Below are positions 8,812-62,675 of a DNA stretch of 64,000 nucleotides, one piece after another. Both the position numbers and the translations under genes were made by a program. This stretch comes from an uncultured Bacteroidales bacterium. GTDB lineage: Bacteria; Bacteroidota; Bacteroidia; Bacteroidales; WCHB1-69. The notes under the pieces are model-generated. The model saw nothing but the letters and a program-made list of their open reading frames with translations. It was not told the DNA's origin and made no database searches. Every line of letters starts with the position of its first letter. Within the stretch, counting starts at the first letter, position 1. The stretch spans positions 1-64,000 of the forward strand of contig CAMKLG010000002.1 in the NCBI GenBank assembly GCA_946413585.1. The letters are read 5' to 3'.

Positions 8812-8958
8812 GGTTTAGGGTTTAGGGTTTGTAGTTTAGGGTTTATAGTTTATAGTTTATAGTTTAGGGTTTATAGTTTAGGGTTTATAGTTTATAGTTT
8901 AGGGTTTAGGGAGTAGGGAGTAGTTCAAAGTTCAAAGTCCAAAGTTCAAAGTCCAAAA
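8812..8958. repeat. heptamer array, 21 contiguous 7-nt units (GGTTTAG / AGTTTAT / GGAGTAG / TTCAAAG types)
   Basis: Direct parse: ggtttag ggtttag ggtttgt agtttag ggtttat agtttat agtttat agtttag ... ggtttag ggagtag ggagtag ttcaaag ttcaaag tccaaag ttcaaag tccaaaa, no phase break. Confidence 0.95.
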
Positions 8959-9898: not shown

Positions 9899-10864
9899 AT
9901 GTCAACAAGCTATCGAGTCATACCCGTGTTTCTGCCGATGCTGGCTTGCCCGCACCGTTGCATCTATTGCAACCAGTTTGTGATTTCTGGACAGCAGAAA
10001 CTTCCTGATGTCCAGGATGTTGTTTCGCTGATTGAGCGCAATTTGGCCACGATGCCTGTCGGGGCTCATAAGCGCGTCGCTTTCTTCGGGGGGAGCTTTA
10101 CCTGTTTGCCCATGTCCATTCAGAACCGCTATCTTGACGTGGTTCAACCTTATCTCCAATCTTGTCGGATTGAGGGTGTCCAGCTTTCCACACGTCCCGA
10201 CTATATCGACGATGCAATCCTGCAAAATCTTAAGAACAAGGGGGTTACATTGATAGAGCTCGGTGCCCAATCGCTGGATGACGACATTCTGAAACGTTGC
10301 GGTCGTGGACACACCGTGGAGGATGTGCGCCGTGCGTCCGAGCGGATTCGCAACTACGATATGGATTTGGGCTTGCAGATGATGATTGGGTTGCCGGGCG
10401 ACACGCTCGAAACGGCCATGCGCACGGCGGAACAAATTGTGGCATTTGGGGCAAGCTGCACGCGCATCTACCCAACACTTGTGGTGGAAGGAACGGCACT
10501 GGCAGATGACTATCTATCAGGTGATTATGTGCCATTGACTTTGGAAGAGTCGGTGGAGTGGTGCAAAGAACTGTACTGTTATTATACCGCGCACAATGTG
10601 ACGATTTTACGGATGGGATTGCATCCGACACAGGACTTGCGCAGCGGCGAACATTTGTTGGCCGGACCGTTCCATATCTCCTTTAAGGAGTTGGTGCTCA
10701 CGGCATTGTGGCGCGATCGCATCGCCGCCCAAATCGCCGAAGAGGGTAGGGCAGATGTCACAGTGCTCGTGCCCCCCAGGGAGATGAACTATGCAGTGGG
10801 CTATGCCTCCGCCAACCGCAAAACGTTCCCCTCCATCAAATTCGAAATTTCTAATAGGCAATAG
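9899..10864 (+). CDS. radical SAM protein (Elp3-like family)
   Basis: MLACPHRCIYCNQFVISGQQ: CxxxCxxC motif; VAFFGGSFTCLP, GLQMMIGLPGDTLETAMRTAEQIV. Confidence 0.85.
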   Translation: MSTSYRVIPVFLPMLACPHRCIYCNQFVISGQQKLPDVQDVVSLIERNLATMPVGAHKRVAFFGGSFTCLPMSIQNRYLDVVQPYLQSCRIEGVQLSTRPDYIDDAILQNLKNKGVTLIELGAQSLDDDILKRCGRGHTVEDVRRASERIRNYDMDLGLQMMIGLPGDTLETAMRTAEQIVAFGASCTRIYPTLVVEGTALADDYLSGDYVPLTLEESVEWCKELYCYYTAHNVTILRMGLHPTQDLRSGEHLLAGPFHISFKELVLTALWRDRIAAQIAEEGRADVTVLVPPREMNYAVGYASANRKTFPSIKFEISNRQ

Positions 10865-11035
10865 GGAATAGGGAATAGGGAGTAGGGAGTAGTTTATAGT
10901 TCCAAGTTCCAAGTTCAAGGTTCAAGGTTCAAAGTTCAAGGTTCAAGGTTCAAAGTTCTATGTCTAAGTTCTATGTTTAAGTTGAAAAGCCAACCGCCAA
11001 CTGCTAACTGCTAACTACTAACTGCTAACTCTCAA
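10853..11035. repeat. long heptamer array (AATAGGG / CCAAGTT / CAAGGTT / ACTGCTA types), containing the stop of the radical SAM gene
   Basis: aataggc aataggg aataggg aataggg agtaggg agtagtt tatagtt ccaagtt ccaagtt caaggtt caaggtt caaagtt ... aaagcca accgcca actgcta actgcta actacta actgcta actctca: continuous 7-nt phase. Confidence 0.93.
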
Positions 11036-13645: not shown

Positions 13646-14227
13646 ATGCAGGTTTTTAATGGCATAGATCAGTTGCCGGTTTTGAAAAACCCGGTGGTCG
13701 CGGTTGGTGCATTCGACGGCGTTCATTTGGGTCATGCCCGCATTCTGCAATTTTTGACGCAACAGGCAGCGCAGGTGGACGGCACGAGTGTGGTGATAAC
13801 CTTTGATCCCCACCCGCGCACTGTTTTGCAACCCGATAGCGACTTCTTTACTATCAATATACTGCCAGAAAATCTGCGCCGGATTGAGCAGCAGGGCGTT
13901 GATGCCGTCATCGTCCTTCCGTTTACCGAAGCGTTTTCCCAAATGACCTACCAGCAGTTCGTGGAGGAAGTGCTGATTGGCAAGTTGCATGCCCACACTT
14001 TGGTGATGGGGCCTAACCACGCTTTTGGTCACCATCGCGAAGGTCACCACGACAATATCAAGAGGTTTTGTCAGGACCACGACCTGCAGGTGGTCGATAT
14101 TCCGGAAAAGATGTGGCATTCCGCGGGCGTGCATTCCGCGCTTATCCGAGAGCATATCCGCCAAAAGGACTGGGAAACCGTCAATGCGATGCTGGGGTAT
14201 GAGTATATAATGATGAATGATAAATGA
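13646..14227 (+). CDS. ribF: FAD synthetase (RibF) N-terminal FMN adenylyltransferase domain only; riboflavin kinase domain missing
   Basis: VVAVGAFDGVHLGHARIL...FDPHPRTVL...NHAFGHHREGHHDN...SALIREHIRQKDWETVNAMLGYEY, then IMMNDK* encoded by a repeat array; 193 aa instead of about 310. Confidence 0.8.
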   Translation: MQVFNGIDQLPVLKNPVVAVGAFDGVHLGHARILQFLTQQAAQVDGTSVVITFDPHPRTVLQPDSDFFTINILPENLRRIEQQGVDAVIVLPFTEAFSQMTYQQFVEEVLIGKLHAHTLVMGPNHAFGHHREGHHDNIKRFCQDHDLQVVDIPEKMWHSAGVHSALIREHIRQKDWETVNAMLGYEYIMMNDK

Positions 14228-14243
14228 TGAATGATGAATATAT
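14209..14243. repeat. heptamer array AATGATG x4-5 at the truncated end of ribF
   Basis: aatgatg aatgata aatgatg aatgatg aatatat. Confidence 0.85.
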
Positions 14244-14255
14244 TTTAAAACATCT

Positions 14256-14333
14256 TCCTTGAGCAGTCCCGAAGGGACAAAACGCACGAAGTGCAATTAA
14301 CCCCACACAAGCGAAGCGCAGTGTGGGGATGGT
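14256..14333. repeat. dispersed palindromic intergenic element, copy 1
   Basis: cttccttgagcaGTCCCgaaGGGACaaaacGCACgaaGTGCaattaaCCCCACACaagcgaagcgcaGTGTGGGG: three nested short hairpins; core shared with 35965 and 62348. Confidence 0.65.
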
Positions 14334-19155: not shown

Positions 19156-20019
19156 ATGCGACAATTAAGAATAACAAAACAAGTCACGAACCGCAGCGAA
19201 ACGCCCTCTTTGGACAAGTACCTGCATGATATTGGTAAAGTTCCCCTGTTGACGGCGGATGAGGAGGCTGAATTGGCCCGTAGAATCCGCAACGGGGATC
19301 AAGATGCGTTGGAACGCCTTACCAATTCCAACTTGCGTTTTGTGGTATCAGTGGCAAAACAATATCAGAATCAGGGAATTACATTGTCAGACCTGATTAA
19401 CGAGGGAAATCTTGGATTGATTAAGGCTGCCCACCGTTTTGATGAGACCAAGGGCTTCAAGTTCATCTCTTTCGCCGTGTGGTGGATTCGTCAGGCTATT
19501 CTGCAAGCCATCGCGGAACAGTCGCGCATCGTGCGTCTGCCCATGAACAAAGTGGGTGTCATCAACAAGATTTACAAGACGATGGGCATTCTGGAGCAGG
19601 AACTTCAGCGTGAGCCGAAAGTCTCTGAAATTGCGGAGCGTTTGGGCATGACCGAAGAGGAAATCAAGGATTCGATGAAGAACTCCCCGAAACACCTTTC
19701 CATGGATGCCAGTCTTACTTCCGACGACGATACCAATATGTACGATGTGCTTCGCAACGAAGATACGGTTTCCCCTGACAAGGAACTGATTTACCAATCG
19801 TTGCAGCAGGAGCTTGGCACCATCATCGACACCCTTCCTTCTCGCGAGGCGGAAATCTTGAAGCTTTTTTACGGTCTGGGCAGCAAGCACCCGATGACTC
19901 TGGATGAGATCGGTGAGAAGTTCGACCTCTCCCGCGAGCGCGTCCGCCAAATCAAGGAGAAAGCCATTCGCCGCCTGCGCCATAATGCCAAATGCAAGTC
20001 GTTGCAAGCGTATCTTTAG
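19156..20019 (+). CDS. rpoD: primary-type sigma-70 factor (RpoD/SigA)
   Basis: MRQLRITKQVTNRSETPSLDKYLHDIGKVPLLTADEEAELARRIRNGDQDALERLTNSNLRFVVSVAKQYQNQGITLSDLINEGNLGL. Confidence 0.93.
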   Translation: MRQLRITKQVTNRSETPSLDKYLHDIGKVPLLTADEEAELARRIRNGDQDALERLTNSNLRFVVSVAKQYQNQGITLSDLINEGNLGLIKAAHRFDETKGFKFISFAVWWIRQAILQAIAEQSRIVRLPMNKVGVINKIYKTMGILEQELQREPKVSEIAERLGMTEEEIKDSMKNSPKHLSMDASLTSDDDTNMYDVLRNEDTVSPDKELIYQSLQQELGTIIDTLPSREAEILKLFYGLGSKHPMTLDEIGEKFDLSRERVRQIKEKAIRRLRHNAKCKSLQAYL

Positions 20020-20072
20020 CTTTTAGCCAACAGCCAATAGCCAACAGCTAACAGCCAACAGCCAATAACAAT
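20017..20072. repeat. heptamer array beginning at the rpoD stop codon (TAGCCAA/CAGCCAA)
   Basis: tagcttt tagccaa cagccaa tagccaa cagctaa cagccaa cagccaa taacaat; first TAG is the stop. Confidence 0.9.
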
Positions 20073-21507: not shown

Positions 21508-23025
21508 ATGTCTTCCCAGAATAAAATCACATTAGAGCAGAAGAACGTCCAACGGCAAGTCGGCTTGCCGTTGACGTTGCAATTGATGCGACTTGTGGAG
21601 ATGCCCTACGCCTCTTTGGAGCAGGAAATCCGCAATGCCGTTGATGAAAACCCCGCGTTGGAAATCTATGATGAAAATGCTGGGGAGACCGAAAGCCATG
21701 AGGAATTCGCATCTGAGGAGTATGATGCCAACGGAGACCCTTTGGAACTTTCGAATGAGCAACTTCCTGAAGATGAAATATTTAAGGAAGACTACTATCG
21801 TGATAATGACGACTACGATGATGGGTTCTCCGACTTGCAGTTGGAGAACTACATCTCGAAGTTGAACGCCCCTGACGAGCTCCCGCGCAATCCTAAATCG
21901 GATGTCTATTACGCTTCGTTGCATGAACAGTGGCAGTTGCAGTTGGATGCCATGGAAATGACAGATAAACAGTCACAAATCGCCACTTACCTCACGGGTA
22001 CGTTAGATGATTCAGGCTATTTACAGGCTGATTTACAGGCGATTGTGAACGAACTGCTCTACACCGAATATATTCAGACAAATGTGGAAGAGGTGGAGTA
22101 TGTACTGACCCATTTTGTGCAGGAGTTGGATCCGCCGGGTGTCGGTGCTCGTAACTTGCAAGAGTGTCTTTTGCTGCAGTTAGACCGTCTGCCGGAGACA
22201 ACGCCCGCGCACACGTATGCCCGCGTGATCATCACCCAATATTTTGATCTGCTGACGAAAAGACACTACGATAAGATATTGTCTGCGATGGAACTCGCAG
22301 ATGAGGAGTTGAAGGCTGCTTTGGAGGTCATCCAAAAACTGGATCCGCGTCCAGTCTCTCAGGATGCCCCATTATTGAAAAATGCCGAAATCATCATTCC
22401 TGATTTTACCATTACCAATCAGGATGGAAAATTGACGCTGACCTTGAACAACCAATATGTTCCTAAGGTGCGGATTAACAAGGAGTTCAGTAATGAATAT
22501 CGTTTCCTCTCTAAAGAAGAGTACGATCGTCGGAAGTCAGAGGCTGAGCGTTTCATGAAGAAATATGTCGATGATGGAATGCAGTTTATCAAAACTTTGT
22601 CGTTGCGCGAGATGTTGCTCTACAACACGATGTATGCCATCATGCAGCATCAACGTGACTATTTCATGTCGGGTGATGATAAGGATCTTAAACCAATGAT
22701 ACTCAAAACGATAGCGCAGGAGGTTGGCGCGGATATCTCGACCATCTCGCGCGTGTCGAACAGCAAGTATGTGCAGACAGACTTCGGCATTGTCCCGCTT
22801 AAGCATCTCTTCTCCGAGGCTGTAAACGACGACGATGTCTCTTCCAAAGAGATTAAGAAGATGTTGGGCGACCTCATTTCCGCCGAAGACAAGAGAAAAC
22901 CGCTGTCTGACGATAAGATTTGTTCCATGTTACAGGAGAAAGGTTATAACATCGCCCGCCGCACCGTTGCGAAGTACCGCGAACAGATGAGTATCCCTGT
23001 GGCAAGGTTGAGGAAGGAGTTGTAG
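21508..23025 (+). CDS. rpoN: RNA polymerase sigma-54 factor
   Basis: QKNVQRQVGLPLTLQLMRLVEMPYASLEQEI...HFVQELDPPGVGARNLQECLLLQ...C-terminal ARRTVAKYREQMSIPVARLRKEL (RpoN box ARRTVAKYRE). Confidence 0.95.
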   Translation: MSSQNKITLEQKNVQRQVGLPLTLQLMRLVEMPYASLEQEIRNAVDENPALEIYDENAGETESHEEFASEEYDANGDPLELSNEQLPEDEIFKEDYYRDNDDYDDGFSDLQLENYISKLNAPDELPRNPKSDVYYASLHEQWQLQLDAMEMTDKQSQIATYLTGTLDDSGYLQADLQAIVNELLYTEYIQTNVEEVEYVLTHFVQELDPPGVGARNLQECLLLQLDRLPETTPAHTYARVIITQYFDLLTKRHYDKILSAMELADEELKAALEVIQKLDPRPVSQDAPLLKNAEIIIPDFTITNQDGKLTLTLNNQYVPKVRINKEFSNEYRFLSKEEYDRRKSEAERFMKKYVDDGMQFIKTLSLREMLLYNTMYAIMQHQRDYFMSGDDKDLKPMILKTIAQEVGADISTISRVSNSKYVQTDFGIVPLKHLFSEAVNDDDVSSKEIKKMLGDLISAEDKRKPLSDDKICSMLQEKGYNIARRTVAKYREQMSIPVARLRKEL

Positions 23026-23071
23026 GGTTTAGGGTTGAGAGTTTAGGGTTTAGAGTTTAGGGTTGAGTGGT
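23023..23071. repeat. heptamer array beginning at the rpoN stop codon
   Basis: tagggtt tagggtt gagagtt tagggtt tagagtt tagggtt gagtggt. Confidence 0.92.
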
Positions 23072-23203
23072 TATTATATTATACTTCTTTTGGAGCTTAG
23101 AGAGGATGGCATATTATAGATGGTGGCGGGAAGGCTAGAAAAAAACAACTTTTGTTTGTTGATCGGTTTTTATTCATTTGGAAATACATAAATCAATAAT
23201 AAT

Positions 23204-24772
23204 ATGAAAAAAATATTCGTTGCGTTGTTAATCAACATTTTATGGGTGGCAGTGCCGGTTGTCGTAATGGCGCAGAATGCCGCCGAATTGACCAATTTGG
23301 TCGTTTTTGTCCGTTTTGCGGATGATGCGGAAATCAATCGCCCTTTAGCACCCATAGACTCGATGTTTAATGGGAGAACGCCCGGTTACCTCAGTGTTTA
23401 TAATTTCTATGATGTGATGTCATACGGTAAAATACACTACAACACCGTTTACACGAATAATGTCCAAAACGGGGTGATAATATCTTACCAAGATCCCTAT
23501 CCACGAGGCTATTTCGAACCGTATAGTCCTTCAAACCCAATGGGTTACACGGAGCCGAATCCTTTCATGGGTGTTTCCATGCGAGAGGCAGAGCTGTTAG
23601 GCAGAATTGTGAGCTACGTGGATTCCGTGGGCTTGGTGGACGCCACGGTCGATTTGGACGGCAACGATGATGGTATGGTTGACAATGTCAGTTTCGTTGT
23701 GAAAGGCGGCACAGGCGCATGGGCCTCCATCCTTTGGCCTCACATGGAGTTTTTCCCGTACGATTCGCTTGATTATGAACCTCGTATCAATGGTTTGAAA
23801 CTTAATACGTTCAATTTTGAGTTCGAAGGCTCTGTTTCTTATTTCACACCTCATGTGTTCCGCCATGAAATGGGACATTCTTTGAGCCTTCCTGATTTGT
23901 ATCATTATATTAATTACCAAGATGTTACGCCTGCTGGAGATTGGGATATGATGTGCTCGAATACAGGAAACAACCATACAGCGGCCATCTTTAAAAACAA
24001 GATTTTGCATGTTTCTGACGACCCGATTGAGATCACGGAGAGCGGTGACTACACGTTGTTGAGTGTTGGCTCCAGCCCGTCGCGCAATTGCTACTACATC
24101 AAGTCCCATATTGACCCAACCCAGTGGTATGTGCTCGAATATCGGAGCCGGAACGACCTTTTTGATGAGTCTATTCCGGGGTCGGGGTTGATTGTTGCCC
24201 GTTGGAACGACACGGTTCCTCTCAATTACGAGGGCTTATACACTAATGGCTTCTTTGATTTCTACAATAGAGCCCATCAGTACTGGATTTTCCGTCCGGG
24301 AAGCAGCAGTGATATTGAAAATGGTTTGATAGACAGAGCTCATTTCAGTCAGCTCGTGGGTCGTACTTCTTTCGGTCCGACCACAGACCCGCATCCGTAT
24401 TTGACAGACGGAACACCCGAGACCTGTTTTAAGATCACGGGTATCTACGACCACGGCGACAGCCTCACTTTCCACGTCCACTTCTTTGATGCCGGAATTG
24501 AGGATAATCAACTGGCAGAGAGTATCATCGTCTATCCCAATCCCGCCACCGAGGTCGTTAATGTGGAATGTAGAATGCAGAATGAAGAATGGGCGGTGAC
24601 CAATATGGAGGTGTACGATGTTTATGGTAAGGTTATCCGCACTGCGGAGACGTTGCGCGCCACGTCTCCGCAAACCGCGCAAATCAACGTTTCCGGTCTC
24701 GCCGCAGGCATGTATTTCGTGCGTGTGACGACGGATAAAGGTGTGCTGACGAAGAGGTTTGTGAAGAGATAG
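23204..24772 (+). CDS. M6-like secreted metalloprotease with T9SS C-terminal domain (copy 1)
   Basis: VFRHEMGHSLSLPDLYHYINYQDVTPAGDWDMM (HExxH); SIIVYPNPATEVVNV...AAGMYFVRVTTDKGVLTKRFVKR. Confidence 0.88.
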   Translation: MKKIFVALLINILWVAVPVVVMAQNAAELTNLVVFVRFADDAEINRPLAPIDSMFNGRTPGYLSVYNFYDVMSYGKIHYNTVYTNNVQNGVIISYQDPYPRGYFEPYSPSNPMGYTEPNPFMGVSMREAELLGRIVSYVDSVGLVDATVDLDGNDDGMVDNVSFVVKGGTGAWASILWPHMEFFPYDSLDYEPRINGLKLNTFNFEFEGSVSYFTPHVFRHEMGHSLSLPDLYHYINYQDVTPAGDWDMMCSNTGNNHTAAIFKNKILHVSDDPIEITESGDYTLLSVGSSPSRNCYYIKSHIDPTQWYVLEYRSRNDLFDESIPGSGLIVARWNDTVPLNYEGLYTNGFFDFYNRAHQYWIFRPGSSSDIENGLIDRAHFSQLVGRTSFGPTTDPHPYLTDGTPETCFKITGIYDHGDSLTFHVHFFDAGIEDNQLAESIIVYPNPATEVVNVECRMQNEEWAVTNMEVYDVYGKVIRTAETLRATSPQTAQINVSGLAAGMYFVRVTTDKGVLTKRFVKR

Positions 24773-24993
24773 GGTTTAGAGTTTAGGGTTTAGGGTTTAG
24801 AGTTTAGAGTTTAGGGTTTAGGGTTTAGAGTTTAAGGTTTAGGGTTTAGAGTTTAAGGTTTTGGGTTTAGAGTTTAAGGTTTTGGGTTTAAGGTTTTGGG
24901 TTTAAGGTTTTGGGTTTAAGGTTTTGGGTTTAAGGTTTTGGGTTTAGGGTTTAAGGTTTAGGGTTTATGGTTTAGGGTTTATGGTTTTTGGGG
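24770..24993. repeat. heptamer array, about 31 units (TAGGGTT/TAGAGTT/TAAGGTT/TTGGGTT), beginning at the stop codon
   Basis: Parsed unit by unit without phase break; contains a 14-nt higher-order unit TAAGGTTTTGGGTT repeated several times. Confidence 0.95.
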
Positions 24994-25097
24994 AGGAGGA
25001 ACTATTGGTATGTAAAAGTGGGCGAAGGGAACCTCTGCGGAAATAATAGCACCCGTTAATCAATTTTGTCATTTTGATGATAAATAATCAATAAAAT

Positions 25098-26669
25098 ATG
25101 AAAAAAGCACTTGTTATATTGTTAGTCAATGTGTTGTGTGTGTTCGCGCCCATTGTGGTGATGGCGCAGTCCGCCACTGAACTGACCAATTTGGTCCTTT
25201 TCGTCCGTTTCGCGGATGATGCGGAAATCGACCATTCGTTTGCGTCAATTGATACGATGTTTAATGGTAAAACGCCTGGTTACCTCAGTGTCTATAATTT
25301 TTACGATGTAATGACATACGGGAGAATACATTACAACACCGTTTACACGAATAATGTCCAAAACGGGGTGATAATATCTTACCAAGATCCCTATCCACGA
25401 GGCTATTTCGAACCGTATAGTCCTTCAAACCCAATGGGTTACACGGAGCCGAATCCTTTCATGGGTGTTTCCATGCGAGAGGCAGAGCTGTTAGGCAGAA
25501 TTGTGAGCTACGTGGATTCCGTGGGCTTGGTGGACGCCACGGTCGATTTGGACGGCAACGATGATGGTATGGTTGACAATGTCAGTTTCGTTGTGAAAGG
25601 AGGCACAGGCGCATGGGCCTCCATCCTTTGGCCTCACATGGAGTATTTTCCGTATGACTCTCTTGATTATGAACCGCGTATCAATGGACAAAAAATATAT
25701 ACGTTCAATTTCGAGTTTGAGGGTGCGGATTCTACCTTGTTCAACGCCCTTGTTTTCCGTCATGAAATGGGACATTCGTTGGATCTTCCGGACCTTTACC
25801 ATTATATGTATTACGACGAGGTCACTCCTGCTGGCGCTTGGGACATGATGTGTTACGGCAGTTCCCTCAACCAAACAGCGGCCATTTACAGGAATAAGAT
25901 CCTGCACGTGTCGGACGACCCTGTTGAAATTACCGAGGACGGCGATTACACGTTGCTGAGCGTCGGCTCTAGTCCGTCGCAAAACTGCTACTACATCAAG
26001 TCGCACATAGACCCTACGCAGTGGTATGTGCTGGAATACCGCAACCAGAACGACCTTTTCGAAGAGGGTATTCCTGGTTCTGGTTTGTTGGTGGCGCGTT
26101 GGAACGACACGGTCACGTTGGACTACAAGGGTTTGTTTGCCAACTCCTTCTTCGATTTCTACAATCAGGCGCACCAGTATTGGATTTTCCGTCCGGGCAG
26201 CACTATCGATACCGTTAATGGAGACATTGATAATGCGCATTTCAGTCAGCTCGTGGGGCGTACTTCATTCGGTCCGTCCACCAACCCGCATCCCTATCTC
26301 ACCGATGGCACCCCTGAATCCAGCTTCGAAATTACGGACATATACGACCACGGAGATCACCTCACCTTCCACGTCCACTTCTTTGATGCCGGAATTGAGG
26401 ATAATCAACTGGCAGAAAGTTTCAGCGTCTATCCCAACCCCGCTACAGAGGTCATTAATGTTGAATGTAGAATGAAGAATGAAGAATGGGCGGTGACCAA
26501 TATGGAGTTGTACGATGTTTATGGTAAGGTTATCCGCACTGCAGAGACGTTGCGCGCCACGTCTCCGCAAACCGCACAAATCAACGTTTCCGGGCTTGCC
26601 GCAGGCATGTATTTCGTGCGTGTAACGACGGATCAAGGTGTGGTGACGAAGAGGTTTGTGAAGAGATAG
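25098..26669 (+). CDS. M6-like secreted metalloprotease with T9SS C-terminal domain (copy 2)
   Basis: VFRHEMGHSLDLPDLYHYMYYDEVTPAGAWDMM; paralogue of the preceding gene. Confidence 0.88.
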   Translation: MKKALVILLVNVLCVFAPIVVMAQSATELTNLVLFVRFADDAEIDHSFASIDTMFNGKTPGYLSVYNFYDVMTYGRIHYNTVYTNNVQNGVIISYQDPYPRGYFEPYSPSNPMGYTEPNPFMGVSMREAELLGRIVSYVDSVGLVDATVDLDGNDDGMVDNVSFVVKGGTGAWASILWPHMEYFPYDSLDYEPRINGQKIYTFNFEFEGADSTLFNALVFRHEMGHSLDLPDLYHYMYYDEVTPAGAWDMMCYGSSLNQTAAIYRNKILHVSDDPVEITEDGDYTLLSVGSSPSQNCYYIKSHIDPTQWYVLEYRNQNDLFEEGIPGSGLLVARWNDTVTLDYKGLFANSFFDFYNQAHQYWIFRPGSTIDTVNGDIDNAHFSQLVGRTSFGPSTNPHPYLTDGTPESSFEITDIYDHGDHLTFHVHFFDAGIEDNQLAESFSVYPNPATEVINVECRMKNEEWAVTNMELYDVYGKVIRTAETLRATSPQTAQINVSGLAAGMYFVRVTTDQGVVTKRFVKR

Positions 26670-26825
26670 GGAATAGGGAGTAGGGTTTACAGTTTACGGT
26701 TTACAGTTTATGTCTAAGTCTAAGTTTAAGTTTAAGTTTTAAGTTTAAGTTAAGTCTAGGTCAACTGCTAACTGCTAACTACTAACTGCTAACTGCCAAT
26801 AGCTAATAGCCAATAGTCAAAGTTA
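26667..26825. repeat. heptamer/hexamer array beginning at the stop codon of M6 copy 2
   Basis: tagggaa tagggag tagggtt tacagtt tacggtt tacagtt tatgtct, then a hexamer TAAGTT stretch, then ctaactg ctaactg ctaacta ctaactg ctaactg ccaatag ctaatag ccaatag. Confidence 0.9.
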
Positions 26826-34196: not shown

Positions 34197-34221
34197 GGGG
34201 CATTTCCCCTGGTGTCGTCCT

Positions 34222-34300
34222 TCATCGCTTTTCATCGCTTTTCATCGCTTTTCATCGCTTTTCATCGCCCCTTCATCGTCCTTTCATCGCTTTTCATCGC
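34222..34300. repeat. tandem decamer TTTTCATCGC array
   Basis: cttcatcgcttttcatcgcttttcatcgcttttcatcgcttttcatcgccccttcatcgtcctttcatcgcttttcatcgc. Confidence 0.9.
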
Positions 34301-34714
34301 TTTCTTATCCTCCAATTCTCTTATCCTCTTATCCTCAAAGTCGATCTCAAACACCCTCTGTTCCACCCCGTTCGTGACGCACAGCAGCGGTGCCTTCAGG
34401 ATGCTGTTGTAGCGGCCGGCCTGCTCCACGACCTTTTGCGTGAGCTTTATGTGCGGGGCCTTGCACTCGACCACCATATACGGGTTCAGATCGTCGTCGA
34501 AGACCACAAGGTCGTAACGCTGGGTCATCCCGTTGACGGTCACAGCGTGCTCCACCGAGAGGTGCGAGAGTGGCAATCCCTTGACGTTTAGCAGGTAGAG
34601 GATGAAGACCTGCCGCACGCGCTCTTCGGGGGTCATCACGACCCACTTCTGCCGCACGGGGTCGAAAACCTCCTGCTGCGAACCGTTTTCCCGTATTTTC
34701 AATGTAAATGCCAT
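34262..34714 (-). CDS. type I restriction enzyme R N-terminal-like (HSDR_N) stand-alone protein
   Basis: VFDPVRQKWVVMTPEERVRQVFILYLL...YDLVVFDDDLNPYMVVECKAPHIKLTQKVVEQAGRYNSILKAPLLCVTNGVEQRVFEIDFE; tail EDKKAMKSDERTMKGR is encoded by tandem repeats. Confidence 0.85.
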   Translation of the reverse strand: MAFTLKIRENGSQQEVFDPVRQKWVVMTPEERVRQVFILYLLNVKGLPLSHLSVEHAVTVNGMTQRYDLVVFDDDLNPYMVVECKAPHIKLTQKVVEQAGRYNSILKAPLLCVTNGVEQRVFEIDFEDKRIRELEDKKAMKSDERTMKGR

Positions 34715-34790
34715 TTCTTGTTATAATTTACCTTCTACTTCTTCCTCCCTCTATCCTCTTTATTCATCATTCTTAATTCATAATTCTGAA

Positions 34791-35945
34791 TTATCCCAAC
34801 TTCGCCTTGTACGAAGCATAGTCCCCGGGTTGCGCCAACATTTCGAAATTGCCGTCTGTGTGGATGACCCCGATGGCGGGGTGCGCCACCCCGTTGAAAA
34901 AGGTGGTCTTCACCATCGTGTAGTGGATCATGTCGTCGAAGACAATGCGGTCGCCGATTTCCAACGGTTCGGGGAAGGCGAAGTCGCCCATGCCGATGAA
35001 GTCGCCGGCTAGACAGGAGCAGCCGCCCAGACGATAGACGTGCTTGCTGTTCTCGTCGGGTTCGGTGGCACCTAGCACCGTCGGCTTGTAGGGCATTTCC
35101 AGACAGTCGGGCATGTGGCAGGCGAAAGAGACGTTGAGCATCGCGATTTTGATGCCCTTGTTCTCCACGATATCCTCCACGGTGGAGGTGAGCACGCCGG
35201 TCTGCCAACCCACGGCCTCGCCTGGCTCGAGGATGACCTCCTCCAAGTTCGGGTAGCGGCTGCGGAAGTCCTGCAGCAGCCCGATGAGGTGCGGGATGTC
35301 GTAGTCGGCGCGGGTGATGTGGTGCCCGCCACCCATATTGAACCATTTACACTGCTTGATGAGGTCGGAGAACTTCTCCTCCGTGGCCTTCAGACAGCGT
35401 TCGAGGGCGTAGCTGTCGTTCTCGCAGAGCACGTGAAAGTGCAGTCCCTCGATGCCTTCGGGCAGCGTGTCGGGCATATCGTCGCGCAGGATGCCCAGGC
35501 GCGAGCCCGGTACAGCGGGGTTGTAGAGGTCGGTCTCGATTTCCGAATATTCGGGGTTGATGCGCAGACCGAGCGAGACCTTTTTGGGAAAGGCAGCGGC
35601 CTGCTCGCGGAACCGCTCGTACTGTCCCAACGAGTTGAACGTCAGGTGACTGCTGTACATCAGCAGCTGCTCGAAATCGTTGTCGGTATAGACGGGCGCG
35701 TAGGTATGCGCCTCGCAGCCCATCTCCTCGGCGATGAGCCGCGCCTCGTTCACGGAGCTGGCGGTGGCGCCGCTCAGCCACTCGTTGATGAGCGGGAACG
35801 ACGGCCAGAAGGCGTAGCCCTTGAGCGCGCAGATGATCTTCACGCCGGCCTCTTTCTGCACGAGGTCCAGCAGCTGCAGGTTTGCCAACAGAGCCTCTTC
35901 GGAGAGGATGTAGCAGGGGGAGGGGAGAGAGAGATACTGGTTCAT
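34791..35945 (-). CDS. nspC: carboxynorspermidine decarboxylase
   Basis: PCYILSEEALLANLQLLDLVQKEAGVKIICALKGYAFW...HFHVLCEND...KWFNMGGGHHITRADYD...ILEPGEAVGWQTG...CSCLAGDFIGMG. Confidence 0.93.
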   Translation of the reverse strand: MNQYLSLPSPCYILSEEALLANLQLLDLVQKEAGVKIICALKGYAFWPSFPLINEWLSGATASSVNEARLIAEEMGCEAHTYAPVYTDNDFEQLLMYSSHLTFNSLGQYERFREQAAAFPKKVSLGLRINPEYSEIETDLYNPAVPGSRLGILRDDMPDTLPEGIEGLHFHVLCENDSYALERCLKATEEKFSDLIKQCKWFNMGGGHHITRADYDIPHLIGLLQDFRSRYPNLEEVILEPGEAVGWQTGVLTSTVEDIVENKGIKIAMLNVSFACHMPDCLEMPYKPTVLGATEPDENSKHVYRLGGCSCLAGDFIGMGDFAFPEPLEIGDRIVFDDMIHYTMVKTTFFNGVAHPAIGVIHTDGNFEMLAQPGDYASYKAKLG

Positions 35946-39338: not shown

Positions 39339-39354
39339 AATTATGCATTATGCA

Positions 39355-40416
39355 TTATGAATTAAGAATAAAGTACCCTCCTCTCTTTTTGCTGCCGGTG
39401 TATTCGATAAGCCCTTTCTTCTTGAGTTCAAAGAGGCAGCGATCCATGGTGGTCTGCGAATAGGAGGTGTGGGAAATGAGTTCCGTGGAGCGGCAACCGG
39501 GATGCTCTTTGATGTAGTTGAGTACAGCATCGAGCTTCTCTTTCGGCGGAACAGACGGGCCTTTTTTGCCTTTTTCTTCTTCGCTTTCCGGCTGTAACAC
39601 GTTCTTTTCTTCTATGTCAGCGTGCAGATATTCATCGATGGCAGCTGCAATCTGAGGGGCTCTTTTGGTGTCCAATGGGAATGAGAGGGGAACTTCTGTT
39701 CGAGACAGGTTCTTCAGGGTCACAGCCTTTCCGTCACATGAGGCAATGTACTGGTAAGGGACGATAACGGAGGCGGATATGCGGATAAACTCTTTGTCTC
39801 CAAGATGTTGCTCCAAGTATTTGATAGTACAATAGCGGGTGTATTTGATGCCATCAATCGTGTGGATTTCTGTTTCATTCCCATTTTTCTTACAGTAAAG
39901 GACCTTGTCTATGGGGATGTGCTGGCAGTTGTTTTTGTCATCGCAAACGTCAAGCATTCTGGCAAATTGATAGACAACCTTGCTCTCCGTTTCCAAAGAT
40001 TGTTGCAGTTGTTTTCTTTCTCTCAACACGTAAGCAAAGAGGTTGAAAGCGAGGTTGCGGAAAACAATGAGGGACAAAACCTCTGAAAAGAAATAAAAGG
40101 GACCAACTTTTTGGATGACTTGGGCACAACAATATGCGATAATTGTATGGCCAAGAGCCAGTTCAATGCTTCCTGCAACCAAACAAGCAATGACAACAGA
40201 AGACCAATACAGTGAAGTGTGGCTCCGATACAATTTTGGATAGAAAAGATAATAGTTGGCGTACAATGTGGCCAATAGCAATAATCCTGAGATATATTCC
40301 TTGGCCTGACTATCTAAAGGTGGACGAAGGAATGCGTTTCGGGGGAAGAACCACAGCAGTGCGGCGCAAAACAGGATATTCAGTAAAATGGTGACAATTG
40401 TTTTTTGCTGTTTCAT
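39355..40416 (-). CDS. membrane-anchored LytTR-domain regulator with C-terminal winged-helix-like domain
   Basis: Four predicted TM helices, LytTR-like VLYCKKNGNETEIHTIDGIKYTRYCTIKYLEQHLGDKEFIRISASVIVPYQYI, C-terminal LDAVLNYIKEHPGCRSTELISHTSYSQTTMDRCLFELKKKGLIEYTGSKKRGGYFI. Confidence 0.75.
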   Translation of the reverse strand: MKQQKTIVTILLNILFCAALLWFFPRNAFLRPPLDSQAKEYISGLLLLATLYANYYLFYPKLYRSHTSLYWSSVVIACLVAGSIELALGHTIIAYCCAQVIQKVGPFYFFSEVLSLIVFRNLAFNLFAYVLRERKQLQQSLETESKVVYQFARMLDVCDDKNNCQHIPIDKVLYCKKNGNETEIHTIDGIKYTRYCTIKYLEQHLGDKEFIRISASVIVPYQYIASCDGKAVTLKNLSRTEVPLSFPLDTKRAPQIAAAIDEYLHADIEEKNVLQPESEEEKGKKGPSVPPKEKLDAVLNYIKEHPGCRSTELISHTSYSQTTMDRCLFELKKKGLIEYTGSKKRGGYFILNS

Positions 40417-42180: not shown

Positions 42181-42265
42181 TTTCCCCGCGTATCTTGCTT
42201 GATTATATCTCCGCGTATCTTGCTTGATTATATCTCCGCGTATCTCGCGTATCTACACGTATCTA
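42181..42265. repeat. about 25-nt tandem repeat CTCCGCGTATCTTGCTTGATTATAT with CGCGTATCT core
   Basis: ccccgcgtatcttgcttgattatat ctccgcgtatcttgcttgattatat ctccgcgtatctcgcgtatctacacgtatc. Confidence 0.85.
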
Positions 42266-42710: not shown

Positions 42711-42762
42711 TGCTGCACCTTTCCAATCCCCGTAAACTACTAACTGCTAACTGCTAACTAAA

Positions 42763-42786: not shown

Positions 42787-42823
42787 AATTATGCATTATG
42801 CATTATGCATTATGAATTATGAA

Positions 42824-43933
42824 TTACTCCCTCACTGCCACCTTCCTGAGGTAGCCGTCGCCGAGCTTCACTACGTAGGTGCCGCTGCTGACGGGGATGG
42901 CACAGGTGGTCGAGCCGTCGTCGGGACGGTGGGCGACCAAACGGCCTTGCATGTCATAGACCCAGATCGGTTTCGGGATCTCGACACTCACCATGATGGT
43001 CCCGGGACGGGTATAGACAAGGATGTTCTCCATCGAATAGTCCTCCACACCGTCGTTATAGGCGAAATAGGCCGTGAACGTGGTGTCGGAGGTAAGGACG
43101 ATGTTGCGCGGGTTCTCCGTGCTATTGTCGTTCCAATTCGTGAAGTGGTAGTTGGGGTGCGGTACCGCTTCGATGCTCACGGGATCGTCGTCTGGCCATA
43201 CGCCGCTGCCCGTCGCATAACCCATCGTCTCATCGGCGGATAGCACCGTCAGGGTGAAATATTGGGTGATATGCGTGCGCACGAACGTGTCGGTCTGCAT
43301 CACCGTCATCGGGGTGTTGGCACAGTTGGTGACGTAGTGGTCGATGGTGTGTGTGCCATCCGCTAATTCAAGCATGTCGAAGCTCATGGATACAGCGCCT
43401 CCTTGCGAGTTGAAGTCAACGGTCTGGAAATCACCGCCGTCGATACGGTAGTGGAAGGTGAAGGAGGTACACTGCGCAGGGACTGGCATCTTATAGAACA
43501 GGTGTTGCTCCACGCGGATGTCCGTGCCGACCATGCATTGGAGCGTGAGCGTATGCATGCCGACGGGCAGCGAGGAAGCGTTCAGCATCAGGGTGCCGTT
43601 GGTGAGTGTGACGTTTTGGGCATCCGCAGTGTTGTCGTCGAACCAGTATTTGTAGATGGCAGGGGCTGATGCAATGGAAGGAACGTGCAGGAAGAGGAAC
43701 GAACGGGGTGACGACCATACGCCGGCCGCGTCTTGGATGTGCAGGTTCAAGCAGTGCACTCCCTTGCTGAGCGTGGTGGCGTCAATTTGGAACTGCAGGG
43801 TGCTATTGCCGAGCGTTACCTCCTGAGCGGCGCTGTAGTTCTGGTCAAACCAGTACTTGCACCGCGTCAGGTTCTGCGCCGACAGCGTCCCCACGGCCAA
43901 CCATGCAACGATAAGGATAAATAATCGTTTCAT
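42824..43933 (-). CDS. secreted protein with InlB B-type repeat and T9SS-like C-terminus
   Basis: GSGVWPDDDPVSIEAVPHPNYHFTNWNDNSTENPRNIVLTSDTTFTAYF; C-terminal ILVYTRPGTIMVSVEIPKPIWVYDMQGRLVAHRP...VSSGTYVVKLGDGYLRKVAVRE. Confidence 0.75.
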   Translation of the reverse strand: MKRLFILIVAWLAVGTLSAQNLTRCKYWFDQNYSAAQEVTLGNSTLQFQIDATTLSKGVHCLNLHIQDAAGVWSSPRSFLFLHVPSIASAPAIYKYWFDDNTADAQNVTLTNGTLMLNASSLPVGMHTLTLQCMVGTDIRVEQHLFYKMPVPAQCTSFTFHYRIDGGDFQTVDFNSQGGAVSMSFDMLELADGTHTIDHYVTNCANTPMTVMQTDTFVRTHITQYFTLTVLSADETMGYATGSGVWPDDDPVSIEAVPHPNYHFTNWNDNSTENPRNIVLTSDTTFTAYFAYNDGVEDYSMENILVYTRPGTIMVSVEIPKPIWVYDMQGRLVAHRPDDGSTTCAIPVSSGTYVVKLGDGYLRKVAVRE

Positions 43934-62540: not shown

Positions 62541-62575
62541 GACAGACGGTTTTCGCAACCGTCTGTCTTTTTTTT
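62541..62575 (+). terminator. rho-independent terminator after tRNA-Val
   Basis: GACAGACGGTTttcgcAACCGTCTGTC followed by a T tract. Confidence 0.88.
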
Positions 62576-62675
62576 ACTTTTTACTTTTTACTTTTTACTT
62601 TTCACTTTTCACTGCTCACAACTAATCACTAATCACTAATCACTGATCACTAATCACTAATCACTAATCACAAGC
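62571..62675. repeat. heptamer array, 15 units (TTTTTAC / TTTTCAC / CACTAAT)
   Basis: tttttac tttttac tttttac tttttac ttttcac ttttcac tgctcac aactaat cactaat cactaat cactgat cactaat cactaat cactaat cacaagc; no phase break. Confidence 0.95.

Follow-up and report, generated by a model that had tools for sequence, protein, structure and literature searches.

Heptamer arrays in the window and its genome

The window, i.e., the whole stretch of 64,000 nt analyzed here, is C2:1-64000 of a 2.98-Mb draft genome. Pfam supports genes for RpoN, an RpoD-like sigma factor, a radical SAM protein, a protein with an Orn/DAP/Arg decarboxylase domain (nspC), DUF5618 and proteins with M6/T9SS tails. M6 copy 1 matched the T9SS tail only and is called M6 because it is a paralogue of copy 2. 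Tandem heptamer arrays lie beside these genes and elsewhere between genes (Table 1). Short heptamer runs (GAATGTA/GAATGAA) also occur within coding sequence, where they are translated; they lie in the T9SS tail region of each M6 paralogue (24560-24600 and 26460-26490). The nearest rpoN relatives belong to uncultured Bacteroidales, chiefly rumen or gut metagenome assemblies, and RUG312 is the closest (RpoN 96% identical, gene ends about 92% identical). The DNA analyzed comprised the window and 60 further stretches (together 1.264 Mb, 42% of the genome) as well as smaller samples from five congeners. Gene prediction relied on a hexamer-trained caller and gave 945 genes (87% coding), so that stop codons are fairly reliable and start codons approximate. 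Arrays may be shortened in draft assemblies.

Table 1. Heptamer arrays of the window, with the gene edge or region at which each is found.
Position	Strand	Array	Gene or region
8812-8957	+	TTTAGGG then GTTCAAA	Divergent intergenic region, distant from both starts
10853-10958	+	GGGAATA then GTTCAAA	Radical SAM gene, from 9 nt inside it
10989-11030	-	AACTGCT arm, opposite polarity	Same intergenic region as the radical SAM array
20025-20068	-	AGCCAAC; sense strand C-rich	5 nt past the TAG stop (20017-20019) of the RpoD-like gene
23023-23064	+	TTTAGGG-type	rpoN (RpoN by Pfam); first three bases are its TAG stop
24770-24987	+	Long TTTAGGG/TTTAAGG	From the TAG stop of M6 copy 1 (T9SS tail)
26666-26710	+	GGGAATA then TTTACAG; root arm, G-rich outward	From the TAG stop of M6 copy 2
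26763-26820	-	AACTGCT/TAGCCAA arm, opposite polarity	Pairs head-to-head with the M6 copy 2 array; root 12 nt upstream of the next start (26833)
34749-34793	-	GAATTAT/GAATGAT	Minus-strand nspC (PLP-dependent decarboxylase family), from base 2 of its TAA stop
39340-39369	+	ATTATGC	Past the hairpin downstream of DUF5618
42740-42757	-	TTAGCAG	Across a terminator-like hairpin after the T9SS-type gene
42788-42826	-	TTCATAA/TGCATAA	Minus-strand T9SS-type gene, from its TAA stop

A period scan of the sampled DNA gave 217 arrays of period 7 against 1-14 at the other non-harmonic periods tested, the harmonic period 14 being the exception to these low counts, and third-order Markov sequence gave 0-1 period-7 arrays. 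Arrays cover 5.7% of non-coding but only 0.06% of coding bases. The arrays are thus far more numerous at period 7 than at other periods or by chance, and they are largely intergenic; both features place them among the heptanucleotide repeats known as STRR or LSSR. Approximately 63 canonical units were counted, of which TTTAGGG, TTAGCAG, GAATTAT, AATGATG, TTTAAGG, GGGAATA, TTGGCTG/A, and GGTTATT are the commonest. TTTAGGG is abundant in only this and one other of 41 genomes of the genus, the other apparently being RUG312 as judged from common contig positions, and TTAGYAG arrays were found in one of 77 genomes of other Bacteroidales families. TTTAGGG and GGGAATA arrays could form G-quadruplexes, but this is not a general property of the units since arrays rooted at gene edges include TTAGCAG, GGCTGTT, and GAATTAA, which lack G-runs of three. 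TTTAGGG, the main unit of the array at 24770-24987, is identical to the plant-type telomere repeat; as so many other units show the same polarity (see below) the match is probably a coincidence.

Other repeats are also present. A 10-bp array of eight copies (34221-34303) and a perfect 25-bp repeat of 2.4 copies (42186-42245) are outside the heptamer system. A dispersed repeat with CCTTGAGCAGYCYCGRAG and CAATTAACCCCACACAAGCG at 14227-14310 recurs intergenically (27 motif copies in the sample), often after short GAATGAT arrays, and two other dispersed repeats, CTTGAGCAG... and GGGCTGAAAGCCC, are located downstream of stops.

Array boundaries and strand polarity at gene edges

The preliminary description held that arrays begin exactly at the stop codons of eight genes in the window, downstream of mostly non-repetitive coding sequence. 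An exact start at the stop was found for rpoN (23023), M6 copy 1 (24770), and the minus-strand T9SS-type gene (TAA from 42826), and a start within 1 nt of the stop for M6 copy 2 and nspC, so that five of the eight sites agree within 1 nt. At the RpoD-like gene the stop is in phase with the repeat (TAGCTTT-TAGCCAA), but the detected array starts 8 nt after the T of the TAG. The radical SAM array begins 9 nt inside the coding sequence (10853) and itself contributes the in-frame TAG (10862); the coding sequence upstream of that stop is therefore not free of repeats. The DUF5618 stop (39298) is followed by two partial TAACTAC units only, while the real array lies past a terminator-like hairpin, 42 nt away.

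As a general statement the stop boundary is well supported. When array edges were surveyed against a null model of uniform placement inside each intergenic region, uniform placement was rejected; in G000, 62/190 stop-side edges were within 7 nt of the stop against 28.9±4.2 expected, and the enrichment is present in all six genomes. It is about two-fold without regard to polarity and five- to seven-fold at stops when the arrays are oriented first. How sharp the boundary is can be seen from a profile free of detection bias, in which only sequence that follows the stop was used to detect arrays. The self-match at a distance of 7 nt was 0.62, 0.64, and 0.79 for the first, second, and third base of the stop codon against 0.34-0.38 in other genes, and fell to 0.36 at the last coding base (0.33 in other genes). 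The stop thus belongs to the array while the last sense codon, on average, does not; in the relatives the match extends one or two codons further. TAG was the stop at 31/61 array ends against 209/883 others (p=1e-5).

The exact stop boundary is, however, only part of a wider rule which applies to both gene edges. Read outward from the gene, arrays at most 12 nt from a stop are predominantly G-rich (151:34), and so are those at most 12 nt from a start (63:8), where the sense strand is consequently C-rich. The outward strand contains only 5-10% C. Adjacent arrays of opposite polarity are arranged head-to-head (58:2) independently of gene orientation, and the polarity is obeyed in convergent (48:14) as well as divergent (23:7) regions and has the same direction in all six genomes. 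There is hardly any skew at gene edges that lack arrays. The main families that hold stops in both orientations also obey (TTTAGGG 31:9, TTAGCAG 24:4), whereas the AATTATG family breaks the rule (6:15). For G000 arrays separated from the codon by 1-12 nt the polarity is weaker at stops (18:10), because stop codons, which lack C, can bias the arrays that overlap them, and remains strong at starts (32:1).

If the gene-side end of the G-rich strand is defined as the root of an array, 32/98 roots fall on stop bases 0-4 (null 4.8±2.1) and 30/97 fall 0-10 nt upstream of starts (null 16.3±3.1). The corresponding values for the five relatives are 35/117 (null 6.4) and 35/110 (17.0). The relatives are not fully independent because RUG312 and this genome share ancestry, but G014 alone yields the same result. 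The far ends, or tips, avoid both edges, e.g., none was found near starts where 8.1 were expected. The 32 stop-rooted arrays span 19 unit families, and the root enrichment survives stricter thresholds and also the exclusion of stop-codon and coding bases from the polarity score. Roots just before starts were found in 66/179 tandem regions but in only 4/30 of the divergent regions that bear promoters. At tRNA 3' ends arrays were found within 60 nt in 3/42 cases, a small count, none of them abutting. In the window TTTTTAC and ACTAATC arrays (62571-62671) lie 32 nt past a tRNA-Val gene, and in RUG312 two tRNA genes have arrays 40 and 58 nt downstream, neither of which abuts.

Array turnover between related genomes

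Arrays at the same gene end frequently differ between relatives. RUG312 carries TTAGAAG/TTAGCAG arrays past rpoN and rpoD where the genome analyzed here has TTTAGGG and AGCCAAC, and other relatives too have differing arrays at these stops. A total of 109 orthologous gene ends was compared pairwise, i.e., unrooted with respect to array gain or loss. The stop codon differed in 8/14 pairs with an array in one genome only, against 13/85 pairs without arrays (Fisher p=0.0016), and in the equal-length subset in 5/11 discordant pairs against 10/80 without arrays (p=0.016). In equal-length discordant pairs identity was about 0.88 in the codons, 1.0/0.82/0.64 in the three stop bases, and about 0.35 thereafter, whereas it stayed near 0.8 past the stop in pairs without arrays. 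Discordant ortholog pairs numbered only 14. Alignments further reveal that whole intergenic segments have been exchanged between conserved flanks (flanking genes 87-98% identical), and on the start side homology ends at the start codon or a few bases away (two examples).

Where both genomes have kept the same array the number of units varies with both ends fixed, as replication slippage would predict. The unit families succeed one another in a preferred outward order (TTTAGGG to GGGAATA 16:2, GGGAATA to GTTCAAA 12:0), the regions at C2:10865 and C2:72512 have the same unit order including one non-periodic junction, and GGTTATTGAAGCT is found at seven places. Ordered families and recurrent non-periodic junctions give modest support to the idea that composite arrays have been copied between loci.

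Origin of the arrays and relation to known repeats

Our preferred reading, to which we assign a probability of about 0.58, is that the arrays are fast-turnover intergenic repeats of the STRR/LSSR kind that take the place of the DNA between genes as far as the coding limit and themselves provide the stop codon. Intergenic DNA would be overwritten by arrays again and again, each time until coding sequence is reached. As the last three bases of a gene need only spell a stop, and as most families hold TAG, TAA, or TGA, an array can supply it, and the boundary would settle at the stop codon; on the start side overwriting would halt about 3-9 nt short of the start codon. Copy number would change by replication slippage, composite arrays would be copied between loci, and purifying selection would set the coding edge as the limit. 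The barrier is leaky because about 35 arrays reach up to 30 nt inside genes. Turnover limited by coding sequence is the best-supported explanation for the exact boundary, the rewriting of stops, the scarcity of arrays at divergent starts, and the array swaps. Neither strand polarity nor the fact that far ends avoid gene edges is predicted by a pure barrier; the polarity could derive from directional outward synthesis, dispersal of head-to-head composites, or selection at the RNA level.

The preliminary description offered two possible causes for the boundary, namely that arrays are seeded at stop codons or that selection eliminates those extending further into genes. Selection at the coding boundary fits the data much better than seeding, although alone it explains neither the exact-edge position nor the polarity. 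Seeding, in which the stop codon and the next four bases are duplicated and amplified, would account for the stop being in phase with the array and for the enrichment of TAG. It is nevertheless very unlikely, as the units are drawn from a common genome-wide vocabulary and not from local sequence, the stop codon changes along with the array, relatives carry different arrays at the same stop (unrelated ones in RUG312 at rpoN and rpoD), and roots are also found before starts. The stop codon itself is not the signal. Head-to-head arms past a stop might also fold in the transcript into a hairpin by which the mRNA is terminated or protected, as such arms can pair and some regions are visibly palindromic. 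This is hardly credible in view of a comparison of folding and T-tracts with array-free genes, by which the arrays do not qualify as intrinsic terminators or REP-like hairpins; the mean z of folding for the first 100 nt past the stop is -2.17, barely stronger than the -1.81 of array-free genes, and T-tracts are less frequent (10/57 as opposed to 34/70). Moreover, only 2/60 opposite neighbors have a common unit family, and the reverse order, C-rich then G-rich, would fold equally well yet is nearly absent.

Selection at the RNA level would allow arrays to arise either way, with only one polarity surviving because RNA that is C-rich just past a stop, or G-rich just ahead of a start, would be harmful. 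The strong polarity of G000 arrays clear of the start codon is expected if leaders must be G-poor, and the avoidance of promoter-bearing divergent starts also fits. We consider it unlikely, since the polarity also holds in convergent regions, where no downstream gene could need protection, and in families with stops in both orientations and without ATG, while array-free edges have no skew and the nucleotide-exact roots are left unexplained. Avoidance of Rho sites was likewise disfavored, because convergent regions follow the polarity. It is also tempting to speculate that a 3' end is extended outward from the gene edge into intergenic space, e.g., during break repair, giving a G-rich, C-poor new strand, that two such extensions meet head-to-head and heal the break with converging arrays, and that this applies to Bacteroidales as well as to Xanthomonas and Nostoc. 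This would resemble the end-healing of telomeres, with which the array polarity is compatible, telomerase not being implied. Although outward synthesis would account for the root/tip asymmetry at stops and starts, the head-to-head order whatever the gene orientation, the low C content of the outward strand, and the polarity of convergent regions, it appears distinctly unlikely; about 63 different units exclude a single templated enzyme, unit similarity has no gradient from root to tip, and the same order would result if a composite that is symmetric under reverse complementation were dispersed as a block.

The closest known counterparts are the GGGAATC and GGGGA(C/T)T heptamers of Xanthomonas and Nostoc, which are mostly intergenic, lie on the sense strand within 50 bp of stops, in some cases overlapping the stop, and on the antisense strand before starts, form convergent pairs in Xanthomonas, and are under-represented between divergent genes (Rehm et al., 2015; PMC4692102). 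The arrays described here share this sidedness near stops and starts, the overlap with stops, the convergent pairs, and the scarcity at divergent genes. That study considered one G-quadruplex unit per genome in 50-bp distance bins, whereas here there are about 63 units, mostly not quadruplex-forming, the roots are exact to the nucleotide, roots and tips were tested against a null model, and alleles were compared. Direct repeats of the heptamer TAACTGA are found in Beggiatoaceae, Cyanobacteria, and Bacteroidetes; 13 sets overlap the upstream stop codon, with stops in all frames, and the Bacteroidetes examples mix several heptamers and differ between close relatives (MacGregor, 2015; PMC4679880). 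They consist of a single unit in 2-6 copies, mostly directly upstream of starts, unlike the present arrays with many units at both gene edges and opposite polarity at each. An excess of heptanucleotide LSSR in bacteria was reported in 2007 with slippage proposed as its cause (Mrazek et al., 2007, as summarized in PMC4679880); the period-7 excess is common to both, while gene-edge anchoring and strand polarity do not appear in that summary, and none of the papers cited here demonstrates a mechanism. Of the archaeal Borg repeats about half are intergenic or have a first unit that falls wholly or partly inside a gene end, and they show strand composition bias and fast turnover (PMC9879509). They differ from the heptamers described here in being perfect, of other unit lengths, and carried on extrachromosomal elements.

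As far as the related literature shows, nucleotide-exact anchoring, many units under one polarity, the root/tip distinction, and replacement through the stop are new. The gene-edge rule extends one that was partly described in plant-pathogenic bacteria and cyanobacteria. It suggests that turnover of neighboring DNA can rewrite stop codons and that repeats are laid down, or kept, unidirectionally from gene edges. Exact roots, a polarity that flips with the side of the gene, and swaps between genomes that are 92% identical strongly constrain any mechanism, and the question becomes testable with a close strain series of these rumen bacteria.

Arrays of another unit length were observed among the relatives. 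In two of them (L100 and L103) octamer arrays of the TGATGCGA type begin at the rpoN TGA stop, and in G002 there are 14 period-8 arrays against 29 of period 7, so that period 7 may not be the sole period to behave in this way.
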